Of a stretch of 20,457 bases of DNA, positions 1 through 14,393 are shown in pieces; the stretch's first letter is position 1; each line of letters opens with the position of its first letter. Origin of the DNA: a virus. The position numbers and the translations under genes were made by a program. A model generated the notes under the pieces. It ran no database searches. It was not told where the DNA came from and worked only from the letters and a program-made list of their open reading frames with translations. Location of the stretch: positions 1-20,457 of the IMG/VR virus record IMGVR_UViG_3300036945_001117. One strand, given 5' to 3'.

Positions 1-517
1 GAAGTTTTATTTCATGTTTTGTAAAAACTTCAGCGTCACTTCTGCCGCAGACAAACCACTGAGAAACAAATTTCGCATTTTTTGGATCAAATGGATTTCT
101 GTTTTCATTCAAAAAAAGTCTTTTGAATCTTAAAAGACACAAGTGTTCTTCTTGCGGTTGATCACTAAAAGACAAAACTGGATACTCATCAAATACAATC
201 TGACAAACTTTATCAATGCTGTAGAGCGGACAGTGGCTTTCACTGATTAAAACGAATTTTTCATTGTCTGGATCTTTAAGAGCATACATCAAAAGCCTCA
301 CTGTCGCCAAAACCAAAGAGTATTTGCCCCATTCAGTTGCGGTTTTATAATCACTTGGAATCTCAAATCTTTTGAAGTAATCGTTGGATATGGGATTTTT
401 ATTGTGAATATACAGATTATATTTATCAGAACGCTCTTCGCAGAAGAATTTCCGCATCAATCCATCCTTCAAAAATGATGAATTGGTCAAAGCAATGAAA
501 GCCACTTTTTTACCCAT
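1..517 (-). CDS. Core-2/I-branching (GT14-type) glycosyltransferase, partial at left edge
   Basis: I translated this gene by hand. It starts at ATG 517-515 and stays open to base 1, giving at least 172 residues, with the C-terminus outside the window. Residues 62-100 contain TEWGKYSLVLATVRLL followed by FVLISESHCPLYS. Residues 149-160 contain KFVSQWFVCGRS. These match the W...LV.A...LL, F.L.S.S..PL.S and SQW...R blocks of the Core-2/I-branching family (beta-N-acetylglucosaminyl- or xylosyltransferase-like, GT14). Family knowledge suggests transfer of a sugar to a glycan acceptor, but donor and acceptor cannot be read here. Bacterial and viral members usually have about 270-300 residues, so roughly 100 are probably missing. 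The start overlaps the upstream stop as TGATG, so it is probably translationally coupled. No signal peptide or membrane segment is visible, so it probably acts in the cytoplasm. Confidence 0.75.
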   Translation of the reverse strand, partial: MGKKVAFIALTNSSFLKDGLMRKFFCEERSDKYNLYIHNKNPISNDYFKRFEIPSDYKTATEWGKYSLVLATVRLLMYALKDPDNEKFVLISESHCPLYSIDKVCQIVFDEYPVLSFSDQPQEEHLCLLRFKRLFLNENRNPFDPKNAKFVSQWFVCGRSDAEVFTKHEIKL

Positions 518-807
518 CAACTCAAGTCAACGCGAATATCCATTTTTGACAGTTCCTCGCATCGATCAATGATATAATCTCGCGCAAGTGAAGGACTCAT
601 CTTTCTAAGGCTGGAAACCTTTTTTGAGAAGACTAGAAAATCACCAGTCTGAGGAATTGTTTTCTTGGATTCGTGATCATAGATCAATTCGTCCAAGACC
701 TCATATCGATGATTGAAGTTGATTTTAGCTTCAATTGGATCGATAGTAGTATTGCCAACGACATATCGAAAAATATCGTTGGCGTTAATTTCTACCTTCT
801 CGCTCAC
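517..807 (-). CDS. Hypothetical protein, 96 aa
   Basis: The gene starts with GTG at 807-805 inside a GTGA overlap with the stop of the preceding gene, and ends in the TGATG overlap with the glycosyltransferase. This tight fit on both sides supports it as real. The product is a soluble mixed alpha/beta protein with no cysteine, no membrane segment and a charged C-terminal half containing two helix-like stretches (SPSLARDYIIDRCEELSK). I do not recognise a family. Its position between orphan genes and a glycosyltransferase gives little hint of function. Confidence 0.6.
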   Translation of the reverse strand: MSEKVEINANDIFRYVVGNTTIDPIEAKINFNHRYEVLDELIYDHESKKTIPQTGDFLVFSKKVSSLRKMSPSLARDYIIDRCEELSKMDIRVDLS

Positions 808-998
808 TTGTTTCGAACGTCGAAGACCACTTCAGAAGATGTTTCCTTGCCATCTTGAAGCACATGCTCAACAACATACCCGCTGGTTCGCTTCGCGCAA
901 TCCTTGGCCCAACCAAAACCGCCCGCCAGTTGATTACTGTAGGACTGCTGATAATTGCCACGATGGTCGTAAACCCTGTATCGGATGTTCTGATTCAT
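804..998 (-). CDS. Hypothetical small protein, 64 aa
   Basis: The gene starts at ATG 998-996 directly after an A-rich leader (AAACAAAAAAAA) with no Shine-Dalgarno sequence. It overlaps the next gene by the GTGA stop/start. The product is hydrophilic and basic at its N-terminus, with the stretch RYRVYDHRGNYQQSYSNQL and a Gly-rich centre (AGGFGWAKDCAK). No known domain was recognised. It follows a 137-nt gap that contains a candidate promoter, so it may be the first gene of a separate transcript. Only overlaps and coding-like composition support it. Confidence 0.55.
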   Translation of the reverse strand: MNQNIRYRVYDHRGNYQQSYSNQLAGGFGWAKDCAKRTSGYVVEHVLQDGKETSSEVVFDVRNK

Positions 999-1079
999 TT
1001 TTTTTTGTTTATTTAGTAGTTTGTTGTTATTTTAGTTTGATTGCTGCGGTTTATTGTCGCCTCAATCGTTGTCGAGATC

Positions 1080-1108
1080 ACTGTATTCTAAAATGTTGCC
1101 GCCGTCAA
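1080..1108 (-). promoter_or_regulatory. Candidate sigma70-type promoter
   Basis: On the minus strand TTGACG (1108-1103) is followed by 17 nt and then TACAGT (1085-1080). The -35 matches consensus at 5 of 6 positions and the -10 at 4 of 6. It lies in the 137-nt gap between the 78-aa and 64-aa genes, and would give a leader of roughly 75 nt to the small-gene/glycosyltransferase transcript. This is motif evidence only; AT-rich gaps produce chance matches. Confidence 0.3.
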
Positions 1109-1135
1109 GAACAAATTTCAAATTTTTGTAGAGAA

Positions 1136-1372
1136 TTAAAAAGTAATTTCAATCCCAATCTTGCCCACGTTCACATTGTCGCTGATGTAGCCTTTGATGA
1201 TGACAGTGTTTTTATTTACAAAGAAAGTTTCGGAAATTTCAATGATGTGTTTTTTGCCATCAATAAATAATTCGTGCATTTTATGCTCCAAATGTTTAAT
1301 GTCAAATTCGATCTGCTGAGATAGTGAAAAATGGGAAAGACTATCGCTGATGCCAATAATTTTTGCTTTCAT
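1136..1372 (-). CDS. Hypothetical protein, 78 aa
   Basis: The gene begins at ATG 1372-1370, eight bases after the sulfotransferase stop codon, in the same direction. The product has an alternating charged/hydrophobic pattern suggesting beta strands (HIIEISETFFV, TVIIKGYISD, GKIGIEITF) and a His-rich middle (KHLEHKMHELF). No family was recognised. It ends 137 nt before the next gene, so it may close the transcript that starts at 3004. Confidence 0.55.
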   Translation of the reverse strand: MKAKIIGISDSLSHFSLSQQIEFDIKHLEHKMHELFIDGKKHIIEISETFFVNKNTVIIKGYISDNVNVGKIGIEITF

Positions 1373-1380
1373 TGTATATA

Positions 1381-2040
1381 TTAAAAAGTATATTTAAAAG
1401 TTTCAATATCGCGATGAAATATTTCTTCGACTAATTTTCGCGATTTGTCGTTGTAGTATTGTCTATAGTGCTTATGTTCTGTAGAATTTACATGAGGCAG
1501 TTTTGCTGGGATGTGAGTAACTCTCAAATCCAAAAGCATCTGCTCAAACGATGGCTGAAGATTTTCAAAACGAAGAATTTGTTTTGGCTGGAACGCTCCA
1601 GACATCCATTCCATTTGATCTTGAATAGGAAAAAAATCAGCAGCTTTATTTGAGAATTTTTCTTTTGTAATGTCGCAAAACTTTTCGAACGAGGGCTCTT
1701 CTTTTAAACCAAATAGTTTCCAGATTTGCATCTTATTAGCGAATGAATACATAGATACAAATCGATCCCAAGGATTTCTAACTATCGCAAAAGAATAATA
1801 ATCAGAACATTTGACTGGTAGAATGCTGGCAATCTCAGAAGGCTTTGCATGAGTAGGATCAAACCACCCCTTATACAAAGGCTTGTTCACGTTCTTCATA
1901 AAAGAAGAACTGTATTTATTAACTAAGTTAAAAGCGCCCAAATGTTGGTAAACTGAGGTGCTGGCATTTTTAGGGATTCGAATAAAAATCAAATGCAGCA
2001 CCCATTTACGATCAAAGTTTGGCAAAAAATACTCGTTCAT
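1381..2040 (-). CDS. PAPS-dependent sulfotransferase (Sulfotransfer_2-like)
   Basis: The protein has 219 residues. Residues 16-34 (HLIFIRIPKNASTSVYQHL) form the 5'-phosphosulfate-binding loop. Residues 84-100 (FAIVRNPWDRFVSMYSF) form the 3'-phosphate-binding segment with Arg88 and Ser96. The C-terminus (HVNSTEHKHY then YY...V...F..DIETFKYTF) follows the H.N.S...Y..YY pattern of Golgi-type carbohydrate sulfotransferases and their bacterial relatives. The family moves sulfate from PAPS to a sugar hydroxyl or amine; the acceptor is unknown here. No transmembrane anchor is visible, unlike eukaryotic members, so a cytoplasmic site is inferred. The start shares an A with the upstream stop (TAATG). 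It could instead act on a small molecule or peptide. Confidence 0.85.
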   Translation of the reverse strand: MNEYFLPNFDRKWVLHLIFIRIPKNASTSVYQHLGAFNLVNKYSSSFMKNVNKPLYKGWFDPTHAKPSEIASILPVKCSDYYSFAIVRNPWDRFVSMYSFANKMQIWKLFGLKEEPSFEKFCDITKEKFSNKAADFFPIQDQMEWMSGAFQPKQILRFENLQPSFEQMLLDLRVTHIPAKLPHVNSTEHKHYRQYYNDKSRKLVEEIFHRDIETFKYTF

Positions 2041-2555
2041 TACTTAACAACGACAGTATATTTGATATTCTGTAGAATGTCTGACATCTTGATTAATGAG
2101 AGCAAGTCTTGGCGACCTCTGCGTTGATAGCCAGTGTATAGAGGCATTGCTACATCAACATTCAATTTAGTAAGATCGCAAAGTCTTTCGCACAATCTGG
2201 CCAATAGCTTTCGATTAACCATAACGAAATCATTCTCGCGTTCGAATGCAATTAAATCGGCGGCTCCATAAAGCCATCCTCTTTTGCCAGCCACATTCTT
2301 GAACTCAATCCACAATAGCTCATCATTTACGCTATCGTCTTTACGCTTCACCTTCTTTCGAGATTTAACTTCTACAGAGAACTTTAGATTGTCGGAAGTC
2401 TCAATATAGAAGTCAATATGCTTGAATTGCTCCTGCCTAGATGATTCCGTAATCTTCGATCCACCTTTTTGAATAGCGGTAACGAAGCTAGACTCTGCGT
2501 TTTGTCCTAAAGCGAACGAAGATCCTGTTGTGTCATATTTATTTCTATAAGCCAT
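2040..2555 (-). CDS. PD-(D/E)XK-type nuclease-like protein
   Basis: I chose the ATG at 2555-2553 (171 aa), not the one four codons upstream, because it makes a TAATG overlap with the preceding stop, as seen elsewhere in this block, and has GGA seven bases before it. Glu21, Asp48 in KHIDFYI, and Glu62/Lys64 in FSVEVKSR give the E...D...ExK layout of the restriction-endonuclease/resolvase fold. The following segment (GWLYGAADLIAFE) fits the fold's core strand. The substrate is not known. Plausible roles are a Holliday-junction-type or other structure-specific DNA nuclease of the phage, or host DNA breakdown. The TAATG junction with the sulfotransferase suggests co-expression rather than shared chemistry. 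Confidence 0.6.
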   Translation of the reverse strand: MAYRNKYDTTGSSFALGQNAESSFVTAIQKGGSKITESSRQEQFKHIDFYIETSDNLKFSVEVKSRKKVKRKDDSVNDELLWIEFKNVAGKRGWLYGAADLIAFERENDFVMVNRKLLARLCERLCDLTKLNVDVAMPLYTGYQRRGRQDLLSLIKMSDILQNIKYTVVVK

Positions 2556-3004
2556 TATGTATTCCATAATACAACAATTTCTTGATTGTCAAGAATAATT
2601 CGTATATTTGGGTCTTTTTTGCTCAAAAAATTCATGAAATGTTTTAGTTTATGCTTTCTGGTTATTTGAGCGCGGAACGTCCGTATTTCTGGATGCGAGT
2701 CTCTGAAGAACAAGCGAAACTTTTTAAAGTTTTCGAGGAACCCAAAATGATCGCCAAAAATAAATTCTATTTCTAGGTTTTGATTATCTCTTCTGACAGC
2801 AATGAAGAGTTTTACTTCGTTGTTTACGGTCCCCAAATACACCTCGCAAATCTGGAATAAAAATTCAATATATTCTTTGATTTTAATTATTGACGCAGTT
2901 CTCGATGGTAAATGGCAAAAATCATAAGGTTTCGATTTAATGCAATAAGATATGAACTTTTCGCTTATTTCTTTAGTCGGTTGGTTTATTCGTTGAAACT
3001 GCAT
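2555..3004 (-). CDS. Phage protein, possibly GNAT-fold, 149 aa
   Basis: The gene starts at ATG 3004-3002 in the divergent promoter region with no Shine-Dalgarno sequence, and its stop couples to the nuclease by TAATG. The N-terminal helices (KEISEKFISYCIKSK) precede beta-like strands (EVKLFIAVRR, LEIEFIFGD), a helix (FLENFKKFRLFFRD) and FRAQITRKHKLKHFMNFLSKKD. This order, ending with a basic helix and ILDNQEIVVLW, resembles small GNAT-like phage proteins with an F..R..K...F..FL.K.D block. A clear acetyl-CoA loop (RxxGxG/A) is not visible, so activity is doubtful. It is the first gene of the left minus-strand block. Confidence 0.45.
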   Translation of the reverse strand: MQFQRINQPTKEISEKFISYCIKSKPYDFCHLPSRTASIIKIKEYIEFLFQICEVYLGTVNNEVKLFIAVRRDNQNLEIEFIFGDHFGFLENFKKFRLFFRDSHPEIRTFRAQITRKHKLKHFMNFLSKKDPNIRIILDNQEIVVLWNT

Positions 3005-3021
3005 ATGTATTTAATTATAAT
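2993..3021 (+). promoter_or_regulatory. Strong sigma70-like promoter of the tail-tip operon
   Basis: TTGAAA (2993-2998), a 17-nt spacer and a perfect TATAAT (3016-3021) precede the L gene. Predicted transcription starts near 3027-3029, leaving an A-rich leader of only about 10 nt with no Shine-Dalgarno sequence. The -35 overlaps the beginning of the divergent 149-aa gene, so the two directions may interfere. ATTATAAT is palindromic and gives a possible -10 on the minus strand too. Confidence 0.55.
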
Positions 3022-3024
3022 ATG

Positions 3025-3038
3025 GTGTAAAATAAAAC
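3025..3038 (+). promoter_or_regulatory. GTGTAAAAT element before L
   Basis: The element GTGTAAAATAAAAC runs up to the ATG at 3039. The same core GTGTAANAT ends up 14 or 15 nt before the ATGs at 16805 and 17453. It could be a phage late-promoter -10 box, a translation-initiation element or chance. It overlaps the transcript start predicted from the sigma70-like promoter. Confidence 0.3.
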
Positions 3039-5390
3039 ATGGGACAAGGACAAGATAAAATCGCACTCAGCTTGCTGGATTTACAACCTACAGCTATTGT
3101 AGAATTATTTCTGCTATATTTCAATACTATTGATAAAGAAGGTGTTTATATTGCATTTCATGGTGGATCTGTTTTTTCGAGAGGTATTAAATGGCAGGGT
3201 GTTGAATACCTACCTGTTCCAGTTGAGTCTGAAGGATTTGAGGTAAATGCGAATGGCCAAATGGCTCGCCCAAAAATCAGAATATCCAATAAAGATTACT
3301 TCATGACTGATTTGTTATTAAACAATCATGATTTGCAATTTGCCAAGATCGTTAGAAAAAGAACCTTCGTTAAGTATTTAGATGATGCGAATTTTGATGG
3401 TGGCAATCCTTGGGGCCAAGCAGATGCATCCGCCGAAGTAAGTAATGATACTTTTGTCGTAAGTCAAAAAACAGCAGAGAATAAAACGTTTGTAGAGCTG
3501 GAACTCACTTCTCCTCTTGACTTAGATAATTTTGATATTAATAATCGTTTGATTTTATCTCGTTATTGTTCTTGGTATTATAGAGGTAATGGTTGTAAGT
3601 ATGCTGGCCCTCCTATTGAAACTGAAGACGGCAGAAAAATAAATTACAGCGGTCAATGGAATTTAATAAAAGATCCTTGGTTTATTGGTAAATACTTTGA
3701 AAGTGGCGAACTCACATATATAGAAAATAAAAAAATCATTGTTGATGGCAAGCCAGCTAAAGTTTGGTATGTTTGTCAAACGGGCCATTCTGCTTCTTCG
3801 CAATACCAGCCTGGGTCTAATGATACATATTGGCTTAGAGATGGCTGTAATAAAAAATTAGACGGTTGTAAAAAAAGATTCCAAAACGCCCCAATATGGA
3901 CATCTAACACAGTTGGTGAATCTATTACTAACAACTATGTTGATTTCTCTCATAAAGCTGGCTACAATGCTTACAATAATATTGCGCCATTGGCTTCAGT
4001 TACTGCATCTAGCGAGTATTCTATTTCTTATTCCGCCTCTAACATTAATAATTTACAAACTGGAAGTTTTTATTCTTGGCAAAGTTCTGGAACCAGTGCG
4101 CCCGATCCTTGGGTGTCTTTACAATGGAATTCTCCAAAAACAATTGATAGAATTGATTTATATGATCGACCAGAAACTTATTCAAATTTTAGCGGAGCGT
4201 ATATCACTTTTTATAACGGAGCAAGTTTAGTAAAGTCTGGTATTCTTTCGAATATACCAACCAATGGATCAAGAATAACTTCTGGATTCTCAAGTGATCC
4301 TGTTACAGTAACATCTATTACAATCAGTGGCAGCGGATGCAATGGCGCTTATCCTGGACTTTCAGAAGTTTGTGTCTTTGAGCCTACTGGTCTAGGTTTA
4401 TACAACACAAGCTTTCAAGCAGACAATATTTCTTCCAAGGATTATTGGCAGTTATCTAGCTGGGTTCAATTTCCAAATGGCATTTCTCAATCAAAACAAT
4501 ATACAAACGTCCTTCATAACGTAAAATCTAATTGTCAATCTAGCGGAATAAACCTATATCTTTCTGGTGTTGGCTCAAGTCAAGAATTAATCCTCGATTT
4601 TGCTACCGCATATTTAACTGGAAGTTTAACATCAAGTGGTTATGCAATTTACCCAAGACAACTATCAATAAAATGGTCTGCTCAAAATATGAATCCTTTT
4701 CATATTTTTTGTTCTGGTGGAACATCCACAGGAACAAGACCAACAGCTTTTAAAGAAGGATATATTTCTTTGTCTGGAGCGGGCCAAATAAAAACTTTTA
4801 CTATTGCTCCTCCGAGCGGAAAAGTCGTGACTAGGGGAAATACAACCGTCGCTTCTGGAGAGTTTTTTGTTTTCAAAAATACCGCATTCAATAATGGAAT
4901 GGGAGATCTAAAATTTGGTATTAATGATTGGCAGTTTTCTGAATTATTATCTACTCCTAGTTTTAACGATGGAACTCCAGAATCAAATTTAAAAATAACA
5001 AGTAACATAAGACTTGGTTCTACAGCTATATGGACTGGCAGTTTGGATTACGGAAGAACAGAATTCTTTAATCGAACCGACGAAAAAAGCACTTTTAATA
5101 ATAGTGTTAATGTTGGATTAAAGCCAAGAAAATATTCAGAACTGCAAGATAATCATAAAATTGGTTTATATGATTGGTGGGGTATGAATTTAAGCGATTC
5201 CGCTCCATATGAAATAACAGGAGAAAACGTTTCTACAAGAAAAATTATTTTGAGTGGACAATATACGGGAAGTATGGATTATAGTGATACAGTTATTTAT
5301 TACGCAAATTCTAGTGCCGACTCACCACAAACATTCGTATCTTATTTGCCATTTGGTGGATTCCCTGGAACTGAAAAATATGGAAGATAA
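3039..5390 (+). CDS. L: Lambda gpL-like minor tail protein with inserted glycan-binding domain
   Basis: The 783-residue protein matches gpL at its N-terminus: SLLDLQPTAIVELF, then an FxRGIKWQGVEYLPVPVE segment, MARPKIRISN, FAKIVRKRTFVKYLDD and SPLDLDNFD...R. Cysteines 177/186 (CSWYYRGNGC) and 270/277 (CNKKLDGC) correspond to the four gpL cysteines that bind a [4Fe-4S] cluster. They are separated here by 83 residues, suggesting an insertion between the pairs. Residues about 313-448 look like an F5/8 type C (discoidin, galactose-binding) domain: NIAPLASVTASSE, PWVSLQWNSPKTIDRIDLYD and GLSEVCVF. Residues about 455-690 are beta-rich and may be a second lectin/LamG-like domain (low confidence). 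The end, LPFGGFPGTEKYGR, fits L homologues. The protein links the tail tube to the tip complex. Lambda gpL has about 230 residues, so this one is greatly enlarged. Confidence 0.85.
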   Translation: MGQGQDKIALSLLDLQPTAIVELFLLYFNTIDKEGVYIAFHGGSVFSRGIKWQGVEYLPVPVESEGFEVNANGQMARPKIRISNKDYFMTDLLLNNHDLQFAKIVRKRTFVKYLDDANFDGGNPWGQADASAEVSNDTFVVSQKTAENKTFVELELTSPLDLDNFDINNRLILSRYCSWYYRGNGCKYAGPPIETEDGRKINYSGQWNLIKDPWFIGKYFESGELTYIENKKIIVDGKPAKVWYVCQTGHSASSQYQPGSNDTYWLRDGCNKKLDGCKKRFQNAPIWTSNTVGESITNNYVDFSHKAGYNAYNNIAPLASVTASSEYSISYSASNINNLQTGSFYSWQSSGTSAPDPWVSLQWNSPKTIDRIDLYDRPETYSNFSGAYITFYNGASLVKSGILSNIPTNGSRITSGFSSDPVTVTSITISGSGCNGAYPGLSEVCVFEPTGLGLYNTSFQADNISSKDYWQLSSWVQFPNGISQSKQYTNVLHNVKSNCQSSGINLYLSGVGSSQELILDFATAYLTGSLTSSGYAIYPRQLSIKWSAQNMNPFHIFCSGGTSTGTRPTAFKEGYISLSGAGQIKTFTIAPPSGKVVTRGNTTVASGEFFVFKNTAFNNGMGDLKFGINDWQFSELLSTPSFNDGTPESNLKITSNIRLGSTAIWTGSLDYGRTEFFNRTDEKSTFNNSVNVGLKPRKYSELQDNHKIGLYDWWGMNLSDSAPYEITGENVSTRKIILSGQYTGSMDYSDTVIYYANSSADSPQTFVSYLPFGGFPGTEKYGR

Positions 5391-6439: not shown

Positions 6440-9400
6440 ATGAAACACTTATTTAATAAAAAAATCTTACAAGGAGGTGGTAAAAGCAAACCAAAGCCAC
6501 AACCAGCAGTTTTGCGTCCACCTGAAATTGGTAATTTCCAAATTTTAAATTCATACAGCGTGGTTGAAATGATAGATTTGATTTCTGATGGTCCAATCGA
6601 AGGATTAGTTAATCAAAATGGACAAGTTTTAGAAGATGGCCAAAGTATTTTACAAGGTGTTTATTTAGATAATACCCCAGTCCAAGTCACAAATCCAAGA
6701 TTTGAAGAGTATGCTAATGAAAACAAAATATTTCATATTGATATACAAAGTGGATTAAATAAATTTGGAGATACATTTTATGATAATAATTCAGAATCAT
6801 ATAAAAAATATAAATTTCCATTTGCTGGAACGGTTGCACCAGCGATACTTTATACAGCTATTCAATCAAATTTATTAATGGCTAAATTTGATGATGGTGG
6901 CTCTAGGAAAAGCCAGTTATATTCTCCCTTAACAAATTCAACAATTGGAAAAGCTGGAAATGGATGGATGTGGGTTGGAAATCCGACTCAATCAACAGCT
7001 ATTCAATATTTTCAAACACTCGCTAAAGATCTTGAAGTTCATTATACAAAAAGCTCCCTATTTGCTGCTGGAACAATATTAAATGATCTTGAGACGGGAA
7101 TAAAGAATGAAAGAGAAAGCTCTTCCAGCAATGTTCCTCAACAAGAATCAATAACAAAAGCTCAAATAAAATTAGAAAATTTCAAAAATCAATATTTCGA
7201 TCCAAAAAAGAATTCATTCGATTGGAAATCTAAGAATGACATTTTTTTTGTTGTTAAAATTGGATCAAGAGCATTAAAACAAAACGCTAAATGGGACCAA
7301 GCTAATAATTCTTCAGCAATAGATCCGACAGATTCAAAAAAATTAGTCGATGTTTCTTTTTATTTGAATAATTTTGAAAAATCTTTTCCGTCCTCAAGTA
7401 TAACAAAAATTATAGTTCCATCAATAATAACTAATTCACCAACTGACTCAAAATACAACAGCGAATTATTTGGTTGTGTTATATTTAAGTTGAATAATTA
7501 TTCTTCTTATATCGAAAAAGGCGCTCCTGCTTATCAATATTTTTATAAAATCAACATTGATAATACAATCCCTTTCACTAATGAAGAAATACCACTGACT
7601 CTTTATAAAGAGCCTGAATCAAAAAATTTCTCAAAAGCTAATAAGTATAATTTCTTAAATGTCGCTTGCGAATTTAAAGATGGATCAGAGGATCAAATTC
7701 CTCTGGAGCATTTTAAAAATATTTTTATTGATTATGATTATAATTCTAAATTGCTTGGGCCATTTAGAAATGCAATTGCAGTTCAAAGATTGATTGATCT
7801 TAAAACTAAAAATACTAGCGAACCAAATTTGTCAATGTTGTTGTCTCAGGCTATTACTGACGGAGACGGATCTAAAGACGAAAGAGATCTTGTGGTTGGC
7901 AAAAATGCAAAAAACCAACCCGAAAATTATTCAGATTGGAACGCTGTAAATTCTTTTGATGAAGAAGCTATAGCAATAACTCATACTATTGAAAATTCAA
8001 ACACAACATCTTTTTATGTTACACTTGCCATTTCTTCATTGAGTGACACTGTTGAAATTGATAAAAGAAGTGATTGGGGATCATCTATACTACCTGATTC
8101 AAGTAAACTTGTTAGAGCTGGATCAAAAATCCCTTCTATAGTTAATTTTAAGATTGAATATGGTAAAATAAACAATGGTCAGATCGATGATACGAGCAAA
8201 ATAATTAAGATCTTTTCTGTTTTAGCTTTGATTGAAGGTCAAATGTTAATTGATTTGGGCGCTCCAGAGTCTAAAATAAACTCCAATTTAAAAGACGCAG
8301 TAAAAGAATTTAATTCATCTGATTCTTCACTAAAATCAATTGAAGAAAATATTGTTTTCAAACTACCCGCGCTACAAGATGGAGAAGATCCAACTTCAAC
8401 AAAAAGATACGTAAAAATAACTAAATTATCAGCCGAAACAAATTCCATCTTAATAAATAAAGACATCTATGTTAATAAAATTACAGAAATTGTTGAAAGC
8501 AACTTATCTTATCCTTTTTCATCATTGTTAGGTATTAAATTGGATGCTAGATCTTTTAGTTCTGTTCCAGAAAGAAGTTATGATTGTAGATTGAAAAAAA
8601 TTCAAATACCTAGTAATTATACTCCTTTGAATCCTGATGGATCAGATAAAAGATATATAGAAAAAGCTTCAGATTATAATTCAAGCAATCAAATTTATGC
8701 TGGAGATTGGGGTGGCGAATTTAAAGAAGGATGGACTGATAATCCAGCTTGGATTATATACGATCTGTTGACCAGCAAAAGATATGGTCTTGGCTCTTAT
8801 ATTGACGAGTCCCAAATCAATAAATGGGAGTTATACAAAATTGCTCGCTTCTGTGATGCAGTTGATGATAATGGGTTCTTTGTTGGAGTTTCAGACGGTG
8901 TTGGTGGGTTAGAGCCAAGATATTCATGCAATATTGTATTCAGAGAACAAACTAAAATATTTGATGCTATTAATGTGGTTGCTAGTTTATTTAGAGGAAT
9001 TGTCTTTTTCAGCAATTCAGAAATTCATTTCTTAGACGATAGACCGAGAATTCCTATTGCCATTTTCACTAACACCAATGTTAAAGACGGGGTATTTAAT
9101 TACACAAACTCAAGAAGAGATCAGCAATTCAATACCGTAGAAGTGGCATATTTAGACAGGTTCGATAACTATCAAAGCAAAATTGAATACGTTCAAGATG
9201 AACCAGATATTAGAAAAAGAGGAATCTTCAAAACAACAATCAATACTTTGGGTGTTACTTCTAGAGCCATGGCAAGAAGAATCGGCCAACATATTATTTA
9301 TCAAACAATCAAAGAAAATCAAGGAGTTGAATTCCTCGCTGGCTTAGAATCTTTATTATGCCGACCTGGAGATTTAATAATCTTAGAAGATGAATTAAAA

Positions 9401-10684
9401 ACCAGAGCCACAAATTACGGAAGAGTTCTTGATATAAATGTTGCTGAAAAATCTTTAACTATTGATAATACTTTTGTAAGTGCAGAAATGAATAATACTA
9501 TTACTGTTTATACTCCTACTGGGTATTCTACCAATAACGAATTAAATGCTTTGGCGGATACAGAAAGAAGCAGAGTCGATTATTTTTATATAAAATTTAT
9601 TTTATTAATCGTTAATTCATTAACTGGTCGCTATTATTTCTCTGGCTATAGCGAAAAAATTATAAATACTCAACACCTATCTGGGATTCAGTATCCATTA
9701 TATACTGGAAAAAGCACATCCCATAATCAAAATCTCTATTGTTATTATAATACAGGGTATACAGGATTTGTTTTATCAACTGGTAGAGCATTTCAAGACA
9801 ATAACTTATATGATAAAGTCATAACCAATACAGGATTGTCAGATATTTTTGATATTTCGGTTGAAACAGCCAGCTATGAGAAAACAGGATTCATTTATGA
9901 TACAGCGTCTGGAAATAGAAGAGGATCTTCTGGAGACATATCCGCATCATTTAAATTCTATCAAAACGAAGGTTATAGTGGGCCTTTGCTATCAGAAGTA
10001 GAAAACGCTAATCATCCTCAAATCACACGATTTATTTTATCTGGATCTACTGGATTAGATTTCGGATCAAGAGTATATATTAGCAGCGGTGATGTTAATG
10101 CGAATTTGGTATCAAAAATTGCTGCTGGAAGTCCATACAGATTAGAAAGAAAAAATGCAAGCGACCAAATCTATAAAATCATTTCAATAAGAGAACAAAA
10201 CCAAAATGAATACTCGATTGTCGCAAGCAAATACAATACTGGTAAATTTGCAGAAATCGAAAACTTTATTGCAGAAGATTTTATGCCAGCTACTTATTCT
10301 ACTGGACCTATAACAATCAATAATGTGCAAATCACAGAATTGCCAGCACCAAGCGGAATTACTTTTTCTGGAGAAGATTTAGATTCCGATAGATTTTCTT
10401 TAAGAGCATCATGGAGTGGAGACTCACGTAGAGATGGAACAAAGGTTGAAATCTATAATTCTGTTTACAATGAATACCATGAATACATTGCCAATAACTC
10501 TTCTACAAGTTATTTATTAACTGGCCTTCAGTCTTTGGGACAGTGGAAACTAAAGTTAACAACTTTGGGAAATAATAGTAATTATTTAAATTCAATTACC
10601 AAAGAAACTGGAACTTTTATTGCATATACTGGAGCATTAACACAAATGGAGCAACCAGCAATTACTAACTTTTCTATCACTTAA
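6440..10684 (+). CDS. J: Tip attachment protein J-like (host specificity, central tail tip)
   Basis: The 1414-residue protein starts two bases after the I stop. The N-terminus has a short basic Pro/Lys-rich tail, then VEMIDLISDGPIEGLV, the usual gpJ beginning. The phage-tail-3 core is clear around residues 690-1030: YDCRLKKIQIPSNY, GGEFKEGWTDNPAWIIYDLL at about 758-777, RYGLGSYIDES, FREQTKIFDAINVVASLFRG and SLLCRPGDLIILED at about 970. The last ~115 residues (from LPAPSGITFSGEDL) resemble an FN3 domain ending in a receptor-facing tail. Residues 100-690 hold a long lineage-specific expansion, compared with about 1130 residues in lambda. No Shine-Dalgarno is seen; coupling to I is likely. J forms the tip hub and spike and binds the host receptor. 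Confidence 0.9.
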   Translation: MKHLFNKKILQGGGKSKPKPQPAVLRPPEIGNFQILNSYSVVEMIDLISDGPIEGLVNQNGQVLEDGQSILQGVYLDNTPVQVTNPRFEEYANENKIFHIDIQSGLNKFGDTFYDNNSESYKKYKFPFAGTVAPAILYTAIQSNLLMAKFDDGGSRKSQLYSPLTNSTIGKAGNGWMWVGNPTQSTAIQYFQTLAKDLEVHYTKSSLFAAGTILNDLETGIKNERESSSSNVPQQESITKAQIKLENFKNQYFDPKKNSFDWKSKNDIFFVVKIGSRALKQNAKWDQANNSSAIDPTDSKKLVDVSFYLNNFEKSFPSSSITKIIVPSIITNSPTDSKYNSELFGCVIFKLNNYSSYIEKGAPAYQYFYKINIDNTIPFTNEEIPLTLYKEPESKNFSKANKYNFLNVACEFKDGSEDQIPLEHFKNIFIDYDYNSKLLGPFRNAIAVQRLIDLKTKNTSEPNLSMLLSQAITDGDGSKDERDLVVGKNAKNQPENYSDWNAVNSFDEEAIAITHTIENSNTTSFYVTLAISSLSDTVEIDKRSDWGSSILPDSSKLVRAGSKIPSIVNFKIEYGKINNGQIDDTSKIIKIFSVLALIEGQMLIDLGAPESKINSNLKDAVKEFNSSDSSLKSIEENIVFKLPALQDGEDPTSTKRYVKITKLSAETNSILINKDIYVNKITEIVESNLSYPFSSLLGIKLDARSFSSVPERSYDCRLKKIQIPSNYTPLNPDGSDKRYIEKASDYNSSNQIYAGDWGGEFKEGWTDNPAWIIYDLLTSKRYGLGSYIDESQINKWELYKIARFCDAVDDNGFFVGVSDGVGGLEPRYSCNIVFREQTKIFDAINVVASLFRGIVFFSNSEIHFLDDRPRIPIAIFTNTNVKDGVFNYTNSRRDQQFNTVEVAYLDRFDNYQSKIEYVQDEPDIRKRGIFKTTINTLGVTSRAMARRIGQHIIYQTIKENQGVEFLAGLESLLCRPGDLIILEDELKTRATNYGRVLDINVAEKSLTIDNTFVSAEMNNTITVYTPTGYSTNNELNALADTERSRVDYFYIKFILLIVNSLTGRYYFSGYSEKIINTQHLSGIQYPLYTGKSTSHNQNLYCYYNTGYTGFVLSTGRAFQDNNLYDKVITNTGLSDIFDISVETASYEKTGFIYDTASGNRRGSSGDISASFKFYQNEGYSGPLLSEVENANHPQITRFILSGSTGLDFGSRVYISSGDVNANLVSKIAAGSPYRLERKNASDQIYKIISIREQNQNEYSIVASKYNTGKFAEIENFIAEDFMPATYSTGPITINNVQITELPAPSGITFSGEDLDSDRFSLRASWSGDSRRDGTKVEIYNSVYNEYHEYIANNSSTSYLLTGLQSLGQWKLKLTTLGNNSNYLNSITKETGTFIAYTGALTQMEQPAITNFSIT

Positions 10685-12444: not shown

Positions 12445-13249
12445 TGATTATTTTAAGCAAAACGCGAGCGGTCTTTGCAGAAATATCCTTGAACTCTTTC
12501 CAATTTTTAGCTTCTTCCAAAAGCTCAAGAATAGGCTTATCTTGTTCTTCGTTAGCCTTCTTCCAGAGGGTTCTCAAGAATGTCTTAAACTCTTCGAAAG
12601 ACTGAAGCTTCAGCTTCTCATTGACTGCCTTCTCAAGAGTTCCCTGCGCACTAATTGGTAGAGCATTAGAGACAATGAGATCTCCAATATCTGCCACTCT
12701 ATTTTTTGATTTATCGATTTCGTCGGCTCCCACAATATGAATATTTAAAAAGTTTCTTACGCAACGGACAAACGCTCTGTTGCAAGCGATAGTCTCCAAG
12801 AACTTGAGGCAAAAGTCATCTGTATTATCAGCAGTGGCATTCGCGACATCTTCAAATTCAACAAGGTCGTAATTGGTTTCGTAATTACCGATCCATTGGA
12901 TCTTGCATGTAGCAAAAACATAATTTGCGCCAACATGTGAGACATTATAGGAAACCTTTCTAAAGCCGCGTAGCTTTGCCAGTTCTTTGATTCCTGCAAG
13001 CATAATCAATAGTTGCTTGTCATCTAAGCCTTCAGTTGATTCTGGCACAGGCTTCTTACGAATATCAAACCAGTCCTTATTTGGGTAAAGGAATTCTGGC
13101 TTGATCATGGCCCGCCAATTAATAGAGCCATCTTCGTTGAAAACGTAATCTGTAGATGTGATTAATCCGTATGAGTTTCTATCGTATTTATCCATTGGAT
13201 TTTGCGGATGCGCAACCAATGCTTCGTTACTTTGTTCGTTCGTAGACAT
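12422..13249 (-). CDS. Possible Rad52-like ssDNA annealing/recombination protein
   Basis: The 275-residue soluble protein has a central segment (LLIMLAGIKELAKLRGFRKVSYNV, ATCKIQWIGN) leading to ETIACNRAFVRCVRNFLNI and HIVGADEI at residues 152-178. An A..RAF.R..R..L block after a strand-rich core is reminiscent of Rad52/Sak-type single-strand annealing proteins, which place a helix with an RA..RA...GN signature there. The C-terminal ~90 residues are charged and helical, ending in KIINEHQKNN, and may recruit partners. No ATP-binding motif is visible. A possible ssDNA-binding protein is encoded in the same strand block, which fits a recombination role, but the assignment is from recall of pattern only. 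The start overlaps the previous gene by 23 nt. Confidence 0.4.
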   Translation of the reverse strand: MSTNEQSNEALVAHPQNPMDKYDRNSYGLITSTDYVFNEDGSINWRAMIKPEFLYPNKDWFDIRKKPVPESTEGLDDKQLLIMLAGIKELAKLRGFRKVSYNVSHVGANYVFATCKIQWIGNYETNYDLVEFEDVANATADNTDDFCLKFLETIACNRAFVRCVRNFLNIHIVGADEIDKSKNRVADIGDLIVSNALPISAQGTLEKAVNEKLKLQSFEEFKTFLRTLWKKANEEQDKPILELLEEAKNWKEFKDISAKTARVLLKIINEHQKNN

Positions 13250-14393
13250 AAAAATGATTTAATTCTTCTAGTAGGGTTTCATTATCCTCTAAATTAAAGT
13301 TTTTGTCAATGAAGTTTTTTTGTTGTTGCCAATGATATTTACTCGGGTATTTTTGGTTATTGGCCAAAATAGTTTTGGACGAATTAAAATATAGTTTAGA
13401 AAAATCAGAGCAATCTTCAGGTAAGTCTTTTTTGCTGGTTTTGAAATACAATTGAACAGGGTAATCAAAGAATTTATTTCTCATTTCTGGAAGGTCATCT
13501 TCGTTCTCAACCAATAATGTGATTGGTATTCCCAGCGATGAAAGATCCCTTAGATACTCTTCCGAAATCGCAGAATCTTTTGAAACAATAAATGAGATGC
13601 CCTTTATTTTTTGAGCAAATGATTGACAAAAATCCAGCGGCAATAATTTCTCAGAGAAAATCGCATAGCTGTTTAAGAAGTTGCACCAGTATCCAATGAA
13701 ATTCCCGTCATAGCCATAATCCAATCGAAGAAATACTGTTTGATTTTTAAGGTCTTCAATCGGTTGGAAAAAATCTGGAACGATTTCTACTACTCTATTT
13801 GTATAGTAGTTACCGATAAATTTCGTCTTCAGTGGAATTGCGCCATTGATGTTGAGAGATTTTAATATTTCTGACGCAATTTTTTCTGGATTGATTTTGT
13901 TAATTGAATCATTCGCATCTAAAGAATTTAAGCTAGGCTTTACTTTCCAAGGAGCTTCAATATTAGTTTGATTCTTGCTCCAATAGCCGCGAGAAATATT
14001 AGAGTAAACGTTTCCGAAAAGAGTAACCAACGGAACGTTTATCGAACTGGCATAATGAGAAAAAACATTGTCAACGCCAATATGCAGTTTTGCTTTAGAA
14101 ATGATGTAGGCTGTATTTTTGAAGCTCAACCCCAGCATTCTAGCGTCTACATTATTCAACATCGGGCTTTTTGGCGATCCAACTTGAATCACCTTGATGC
14201 CTTTTGCATTTAAAAAGTTTTTAATCATATCTATTACAATCTCATAATATTTATAATTTTTAGAAGCAGCTTGATCTTCTAAAGAAATTGTAATGTATTC
14301 ATCAAATACCAATGGCCAAAAGTGCCTCGATACTATCGGTTTGGAGATTTTTACTCCAAGGTTTTTTGCATATTCTTCAATTAAATGGCTCAT
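13227..14393 (-). CDS. GT9 (heptosyltransferase-like) C-terminal domain plus unknown C-terminal region
   Basis: The 388-residue product begins with the linker helix SHLIEEYAKNLGV and then the C-terminal Rossmann half of a GT9 glycosyltransferase. FWPLVFDEYITISLEDQAAS starts the domain, and residues 96-127 (YIISKAKLHIGVDNVFSHYA, then SSINVPLVTLFG) match the GxDxGxxHLAxA...P.v.LFG signature with Asp108. The N-terminal GT9 half is absent here and occurs at the end of the upstream gene, to which this one is joined by ATGA. Residues about 190-388 (from FIGNYYTNRVVEIVPDFFQP) are unassigned. The two halves may associate to make one active enzyme with the nucleotide sugar bound in this half. It could also be a degrading fusion gene. 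Confidence 0.65.
   Translation of the reverse strand: MSHLIEEYAKNLGVKISKPIVSRHFWPLVFDEYITISLEDQAASKNYKYYEIVIDMIKNFLNAKGIKVIQVGSPKSPMLNNVDARMLGLSFKNTAYIISKAKLHIGVDNVFSHYASSINVPLVTLFGNVYSNISRGYWSKNQTNIEAPWKVKPSLNSLDANDSINKINPEKIASEILKSLNINGAIPLKTKFIGNYYTNRVVEIVPDFFQPIEDLKNQTVFLRLDYGYDGNFIGYWCNFLNSYAIFSEKLLPLDFCQSFAQKIKGISFIVSKDSAISEEYLRDLSSLGIPITLLVENEDDLPEMRNKFFDYPVQLYFKTSKKDLPEDCSDFSKLYFNSSKTILANNQKYPSKYHWQQQKNFIDKNFNLEDNETLLEELNHFYVYERTK

Follow-up and report, generated by a model that had tools for sequence, protein, structure and literature searches.

A GT14-family glycosyltransferase and a PAPS-dependent sulfotransferase are encoded together in a single minus-strand gene block of what we read as an uncultured tailed phage. 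Both families are known; what is new is their combination, which we class as a phage glycan-modification set that includes sulfation. The window analyzed here is an entire 20,457-base IMG/VR contig (G000), taken as a piece of a larger phage genome. We assign a probability of roughly 45% to the reading that the 2 enzymes are a phage-borne, cytosolic set that makes and decorates a glycan in the infected cell, with a virion protein as the likeliest acceptor. By the metal-independent GT-A mechanism typical of its family, the GT14 enzyme would take a sugar from a nucleotide-sugar donor and attach it to the acceptor, after which the sulfotransferase would place sulfate from host-made PAPS on a hydroxyl of the same glycan. 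The acceptor would most likely be a co-produced virion protein of the tail tip or fibre and, as a second choice, a precursor of host glycan that faces the cytosol. Results of the analysis are the identities of the genes, their cofactor and catalytic motifs, the selection on them, their co-occurrence, and the sugar genes around phage sulfotransferases; the order of action, the donor, the host origin of PAPS, and the acceptor we infer.

The block consists of 7 tightly packed genes running from position 3004 down to the contig end on the minus strand. In the order of transcription these encode a conserved 149-aa protein (2555–3004), a 175-aa protein (2040–2567), the 219-aa sulfotransferase (1381–2040), conserved proteins of 78 aa (1136–1372), 64 aa (804–998), and 96 aa (517–807), and the GT14 glycosyltransferase (2–520, TTG start). 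Most adjoining ORFs overlap by 1 to 13 bases, and the sole clear gap, of 137 bases, lies between the 78-aa and 64-aa genes. The sequence-only reading had placed both enzymes in one minus-strand block, and Pfam matches confirm that placement. The block exceeds the limits drawn for it there, including the 175-aa and 149-aa genes upstream and, in relatives, genes for Mom-family, nucleoside deoxyribosyltransferase (NDT)-like, and HNH proteins downstream. Scans for promoters and terminators gave results near chance level, comparison of the DNA of positions 1–3100 with phage records returned no match, and a defence library search yielded nothing convincing.

Tail genes surround the sugar genes of this phage. 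A lambda-type tail module diverges from the block at a distance of 35 bp, with PHROG matches to minor tail protein L-like (3039–5390), K-like, I-like, and J-like (6440–10684) proteins. A second sugar block, flanked by tail genes, contains a GT9 domain in a 388-aa protein (13227–14393, minus strand; PF01075, 3.1e-7), which resembles heptosyltransferases (TIGR02201, 5.6e-8, under the cut-off), and a GT4-like glycosyltransferase of 641 aa (14390–16315, minus strand; PHROG 2170, 4.2e-17; PF00534, 1.2e-5). Between sugar genes and tail fibre, the gene at 16805–17443 strongly matches PHROG 3704 (3.6e-52), a family with the label ferredoxin. Because the 2 enzymes are embedded among tail genes and a virion protein would need no export, it is our first choice of acceptor; tail-gene adjacency is in itself weak support for such a target.

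The GT14 assignment rests on a match to PF02485 (E = 5.6e-16, 59.3 bits against a curated cut-off of 23.4). Since the contig stops within the ORF, the window shows no more than 173 residues out of about 267; a complete 267-aa copy, 90% identical, occurs in the 48-kb relative G001 (IMGVR_UViG_3300012663_001434; L003:10001–10804). A structure model of this full-length relative (pLDDT 87.6) adopts a GT-A fold whose nearest counterparts are GT14 structures, with human xylosyltransferase 1 (E = 5.8e-9) and mouse C2GnT-L (E = 3e-7) making up all of its first 18 PDB matches. PDB sequence searches with the GT14 protein returned no match. Among viral structures, Megaviridae proteins labelled "Core-2/I-branching" match best (E = 7e-20). 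D186-E187 and R252-K253, which lie beyond the point where the window copy ends, are near-invariant among the relatives, and we take them to correspond to the catalytic acidic and basic UDP-binding residues of C2GnT-L. The fold and conserved residues are thus shared with human XYLT1, C2GnT-L, and the GT14s of giant algal viruses and herpesviruses, from which the phage enzyme differs in being short and soluble, without a stem or membrane anchor. The GT14 family also includes peptide-serine xylosyltransferases. The proposal that the product is a "branched" glycan goes back to the Pfam name and is not supported here, the nearest solved fold being that of a peptide xylosyltransferase.

The sulfotransferase matches PF03567 (Sulfotransfer_2; E = 1.5e-16, 61.8 bits against a curated cut-off of 22) and PHROG 3347 (E = 4.3e-20), and lacks a membrane segment. 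Both cofactor loops are intact in the window as originally reported, the 5'-phosphosulfate loop PKNASTS at residues 23–29 (1954–1974, minus strand) and the 3'-phosphate loop VRNPWDRFVS at residues 87–96 (1753–1782, minus strand), and alignments show that both loops are kept even by relatives with no more than about 30% identity. A regular-expression tally of the loops in 81 sulfotransferases proved too strict, with most of the misses showing the P-loop by eye. A structure model (pLDDT 82) matches the PAPS-sulfotransferase fold weakly, its top PDB matches being sulfotransferases including HS6ST (E about 1e-3, TMq at most 0.54), and a PDB sequence search likewise gave weak matches only. Ratios of dN/dS among the window, G001, and the 93-kb relative G002, at 0.08–0.12 for the sulfotransferase and 0.13–0.24 for GT14, indicate that both genes are under purifying selection.

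Gene order is well conserved in close relatives. In G001 the sulfotransferase is 96% identical to that of the window. G002 (81%) has the order 151-aa, 175-aa, sulfotransferase, 78-aa, 64-aa, 94-aa, GT14, Mom, NDT, and HNH, and the stretch as far as GT14 is likewise kept in G005–G010 (53%). The 175-aa gene lies immediately upstream of the sulfotransferase in every member of the lineage. In G003 and G004 (60%) all the small genes are present and are followed by Mom, with GT14 missing both at the locus and elsewhere in the 112-kb record. A tree of the tail L, 175-aa, and sulfotransferase proteins has G003 (L012) closer in identity to G006 (L015), which carries GT14, than to the window; its lack of GT14 is therefore most simply explained by loss. 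A sister lineage (L020–L026; sulfotransferase 45–50% identical) carries instead of GT14 a 320-aa gene between the homologues of the 78-aa and 64-aa genes. This gene, next to the conserved sulfotransferase (L020:3968–4930, and also in L021, L023, and L025), has no Pfam or PHROG match, and its product reads like a glycosyltransferase. In marine relatives GT14 is followed by ThyX and lies 5–8 kb from the sulfotransferase. In a 203-kb record (L047), genes related to the 275-aa, GT9, and GT4 genes of the window lie close to 2 sulfotransferases, a GT32 gene, and a putative divergent GT14-like gene, this last assigned by alignment only.

The 3 small ORFs between the enzymes (517–807, 804–998, and 1136–1372) have no family matches in Pfam or PHROG. 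Their conservation in relatives and dN/dS of 0.03–0.19 indicate real genes. The suggestion that they might be accessory factors of the GT14 enzyme or the sulfotransferase was dropped, since all of them persist in L012, where GT14 is missing, so that a role as its accessories is not obvious. Members of the 96-aa family are found in 2 quite different phage groups (517–807 in the window and L033:6998–7294), those of marine phages lying apart from the sulfotransferase, and the family corresponds to no convincing database entry. The 175-aa protein has no confident match in Pfam, PHROG, or a further profile search; its motif VEVKSRK suggests a PD-(D/E)XK nuclease fold.

Beyond this lineage, the pairing of GT14 and sulfotransferase exceeds chance and is not obligate. 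Scans with single proteins (sulfotransferase, GT14, or tail J) recovered one close record or none, so that alignment-based scans were needed, and these found more than 500 viral relatives of the sulfotransferase. GT14 is present in 14 of 50 sulfotransferase-bearing viral records versus none of 50 control records of similar total length picked by the thymidylate synthase ThyX. A Fisher test gives p = 4e-5 for the raw counts, rising to about 2e-3 with related sulfotransferases roughly collapsed by hand, and because the records are related and fragmentary and a single control gene was used, these values speak to the existence of an association rather than to its strength. In the other direction, the GT14 scan gave 71 viral loci, with the sulfotransferase already found on 18 contigs and PF03567 in 14 of 50 others, so that at least 32 of the 71 GT14 contigs carry a sulfotransferase; PF03567 occurs in 10 of the 50 ThyX-chosen controls. 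The expectation that the 2 genes co-occur across phages is therefore upheld, while that of an obligate two-gene system is contradicted by the loss of GT14 in L012 and the other glycosyltransferase-like gene of the sister lineage. The dispensability of GT14 in L012, its absence from most sulfotransferase phages, and the 5–8 kb between the marine copies would fit 2 unrelated auxiliary genes sharing a block by chance, with the sulfotransferase acting on a small molecule and GT14 on something else. We consider such a coincidence unlikely, given the association relative to the control, weaker than the raw counts because the lineages are related, and the sugar genes described next.

Phage sulfotransferases of the same kind are widespread and lie mostly among sugar genes. 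We surveyed 125 proteins encoded within about 2 genes of non-redundant sulfotransferases, covering nearly all of 46 chosen loci and excluding the window's lineage. Among the 125 are 21 sulfotransferases, 8 GT32-type proteins, 5 capsule synthesis proteins, 5 GT2, and 4 GT92, in addition to GT25, epimerases, GDP-mannose dehydratase, pyruvyltransferase, NodZ, and FkbM. Since these neighbours are mainly sugar genes, a carbohydrate is the likely acceptor of the sulfotransferase, and the relatives of the window bear out the same glycan context for the pair: GDP-mannose dehydratase and a nucleotidyltransferase occur in G001 and G002, the latter with an additional GT2 and methyltransferase. In a 484-kb phage (LR756508; L009:9317–11183), 3 consecutive sulfotransferase-like genes lie between GT25-like genes. 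In marine phages with GT14 and sulfotransferase, genes for a cupin, an HldE-like kinase, a nucleotidyltransferase, and a phosphatase (L033:8533–10428) look like an ADP-heptose route.

No PAPS-making gene was found in the window's lineage, a point against the main reading; for APS kinase the lineage gave one sub-threshold match, in G016. Convincing APS kinases are present in 2 sulfotransferase records, G048 and G037; other matches cover for the most part just a portion of the protein and may represent different P-loop kinases. The clusters of glycosyltransferase, nucleotide-sugar, and sulfotransferase genes, together with the APS kinases of these 2 records, make a sulfated glycan the working hypothesis.

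The sugar genes also bear on the idea that the enzymes alter precursors of a host surface glycan such as LPS or capsule, which host export would carry outward to hide receptors, block superinfection, or aid progeny release. GDP-mannose dehydratase, UDP-galactopyranose mutase (UGM), ADP-heptose-like genes, and a GT2 that in one relative weakly resembles GtrB are found among the relatives, a set characteristic of surface polysaccharides, and the window phage has its heptosyltransferase-like GT9. Against this, a simple hydropathy analysis applied to the 93-kb relative, a record that is itself a fragment, predicts at most 2 transmembrane helices for any protein, which leaves no multi-pass membrane protein such as a flippase, a polymerase, or a GtrA-like protein. 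The phage therefore seems to be without its own flippase, polymerase, or exporter, which argues against a self-sufficient system and counts against the surface remodelling or superinfection exclusion proposed in the sequence-only reading; an exporter could be encoded elsewhere in the genome. A large phage with replication genes of its own would also have little time for surface replacement. We regard modification of host surface glycans as rather improbable.

A different acceptor is suggested by the genes beyond GT14. A Mom-family DNA modification gene (PF25680, 1.5e-34) lies directly after GT14 at L003:10741–11469 (G001) and L011:12294–12944, followed by the NDT-like and HNH genes; G001 also has a cluster of 26 tRNA genes (L003:13641–19630). 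The Mom and NDT-like neighbours, with ThyX in the marine relatives, leave DNA as an acceptor, and GT14 and the sulfotransferase might then act on modified bases alongside the adjoining Mom-family enzyme. A role in base modification for phage glycosyltransferases combined with sulfotransferases was put forward earlier (Iyer et al. 2013, as cited in PMC10829341). The thymidylate synthase/dCMP hydroxymethylase family (PF00303), which control genomes match, is absent from all 17 related records, themselves fragments, and DNA is for this reason the less likely acceptor; the folds nearest to the GT14 model are those of protein or glycan GT14s and not of DNA glucosyltransferases, and sulfotransferases elsewhere lie among polysaccharide genes. 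TET/JBP oxygenases were found in none of the 17 records, and the controls likewise gave no match. DNA hypermodification appears quite unlikely, and a glycan carried by a virion protein is the reading we favour.

GT14 enzymes are known from giant viruses and herpesviruses. The phage GT14 has no PHROG match and no relative among 50,697 phage records, and we found no GT14 of tailed phages in a literature search that left most subscription papers outside its reach. The sulfotransferase belongs to the same family as the phage proteins of PHROG 3347 ("Galactose-3-O-sulfotransferase") and shares their PAPS loops, yet its closest isolate homologue, in phage DLP_6, is just 31% identical over part of the protein, and GT14 is absent from the DLP_6 record and from 2 other records with sulfotransferase matches. 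Two papers count phage sulfotransferases among auxiliary genes (PMC8290583, PMC12285232), and another calls their function unclear (PMC10580990).

We know of no sulfation in the virion glycosylation of mycobacteriophages. There, phage glycosyltransferases act on virion proteins (Freeman et al. 2023, as cited in PMC12619734), whereas here such a target is inferred. Gtr seroconversion and O-antigen conversion cassettes likewise have phage glycosyltransferases in common with the present set, and differ from it in that neither a membrane flippase nor an anchored transferase is seen in the 93-kb relative. A broader and quite tentative proposal is that tailed phages of fresh and sea water sulfoglycosylate their own virion proteins with a conserved sulfotransferase and exchangeable glycosyltransferases, GT14 or others. 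If true, this would give a variable, negatively charged phage coat.

A few observations concern the host. Almost none of the window's genes are preceded by a Shine-Dalgarno-like motif (2 of the 21 starts tested, with 9% expected by chance; 2 of the 21 were mis-set), a scarcity that fits hosts such as Bacteroidota. A contig binned in a Flavobacteriaceae MAG (L253) encodes a member of the 96-aa family together with GT14 and a ThyX of 87% identity; it is probably a phage contig and perhaps a hint of the host.
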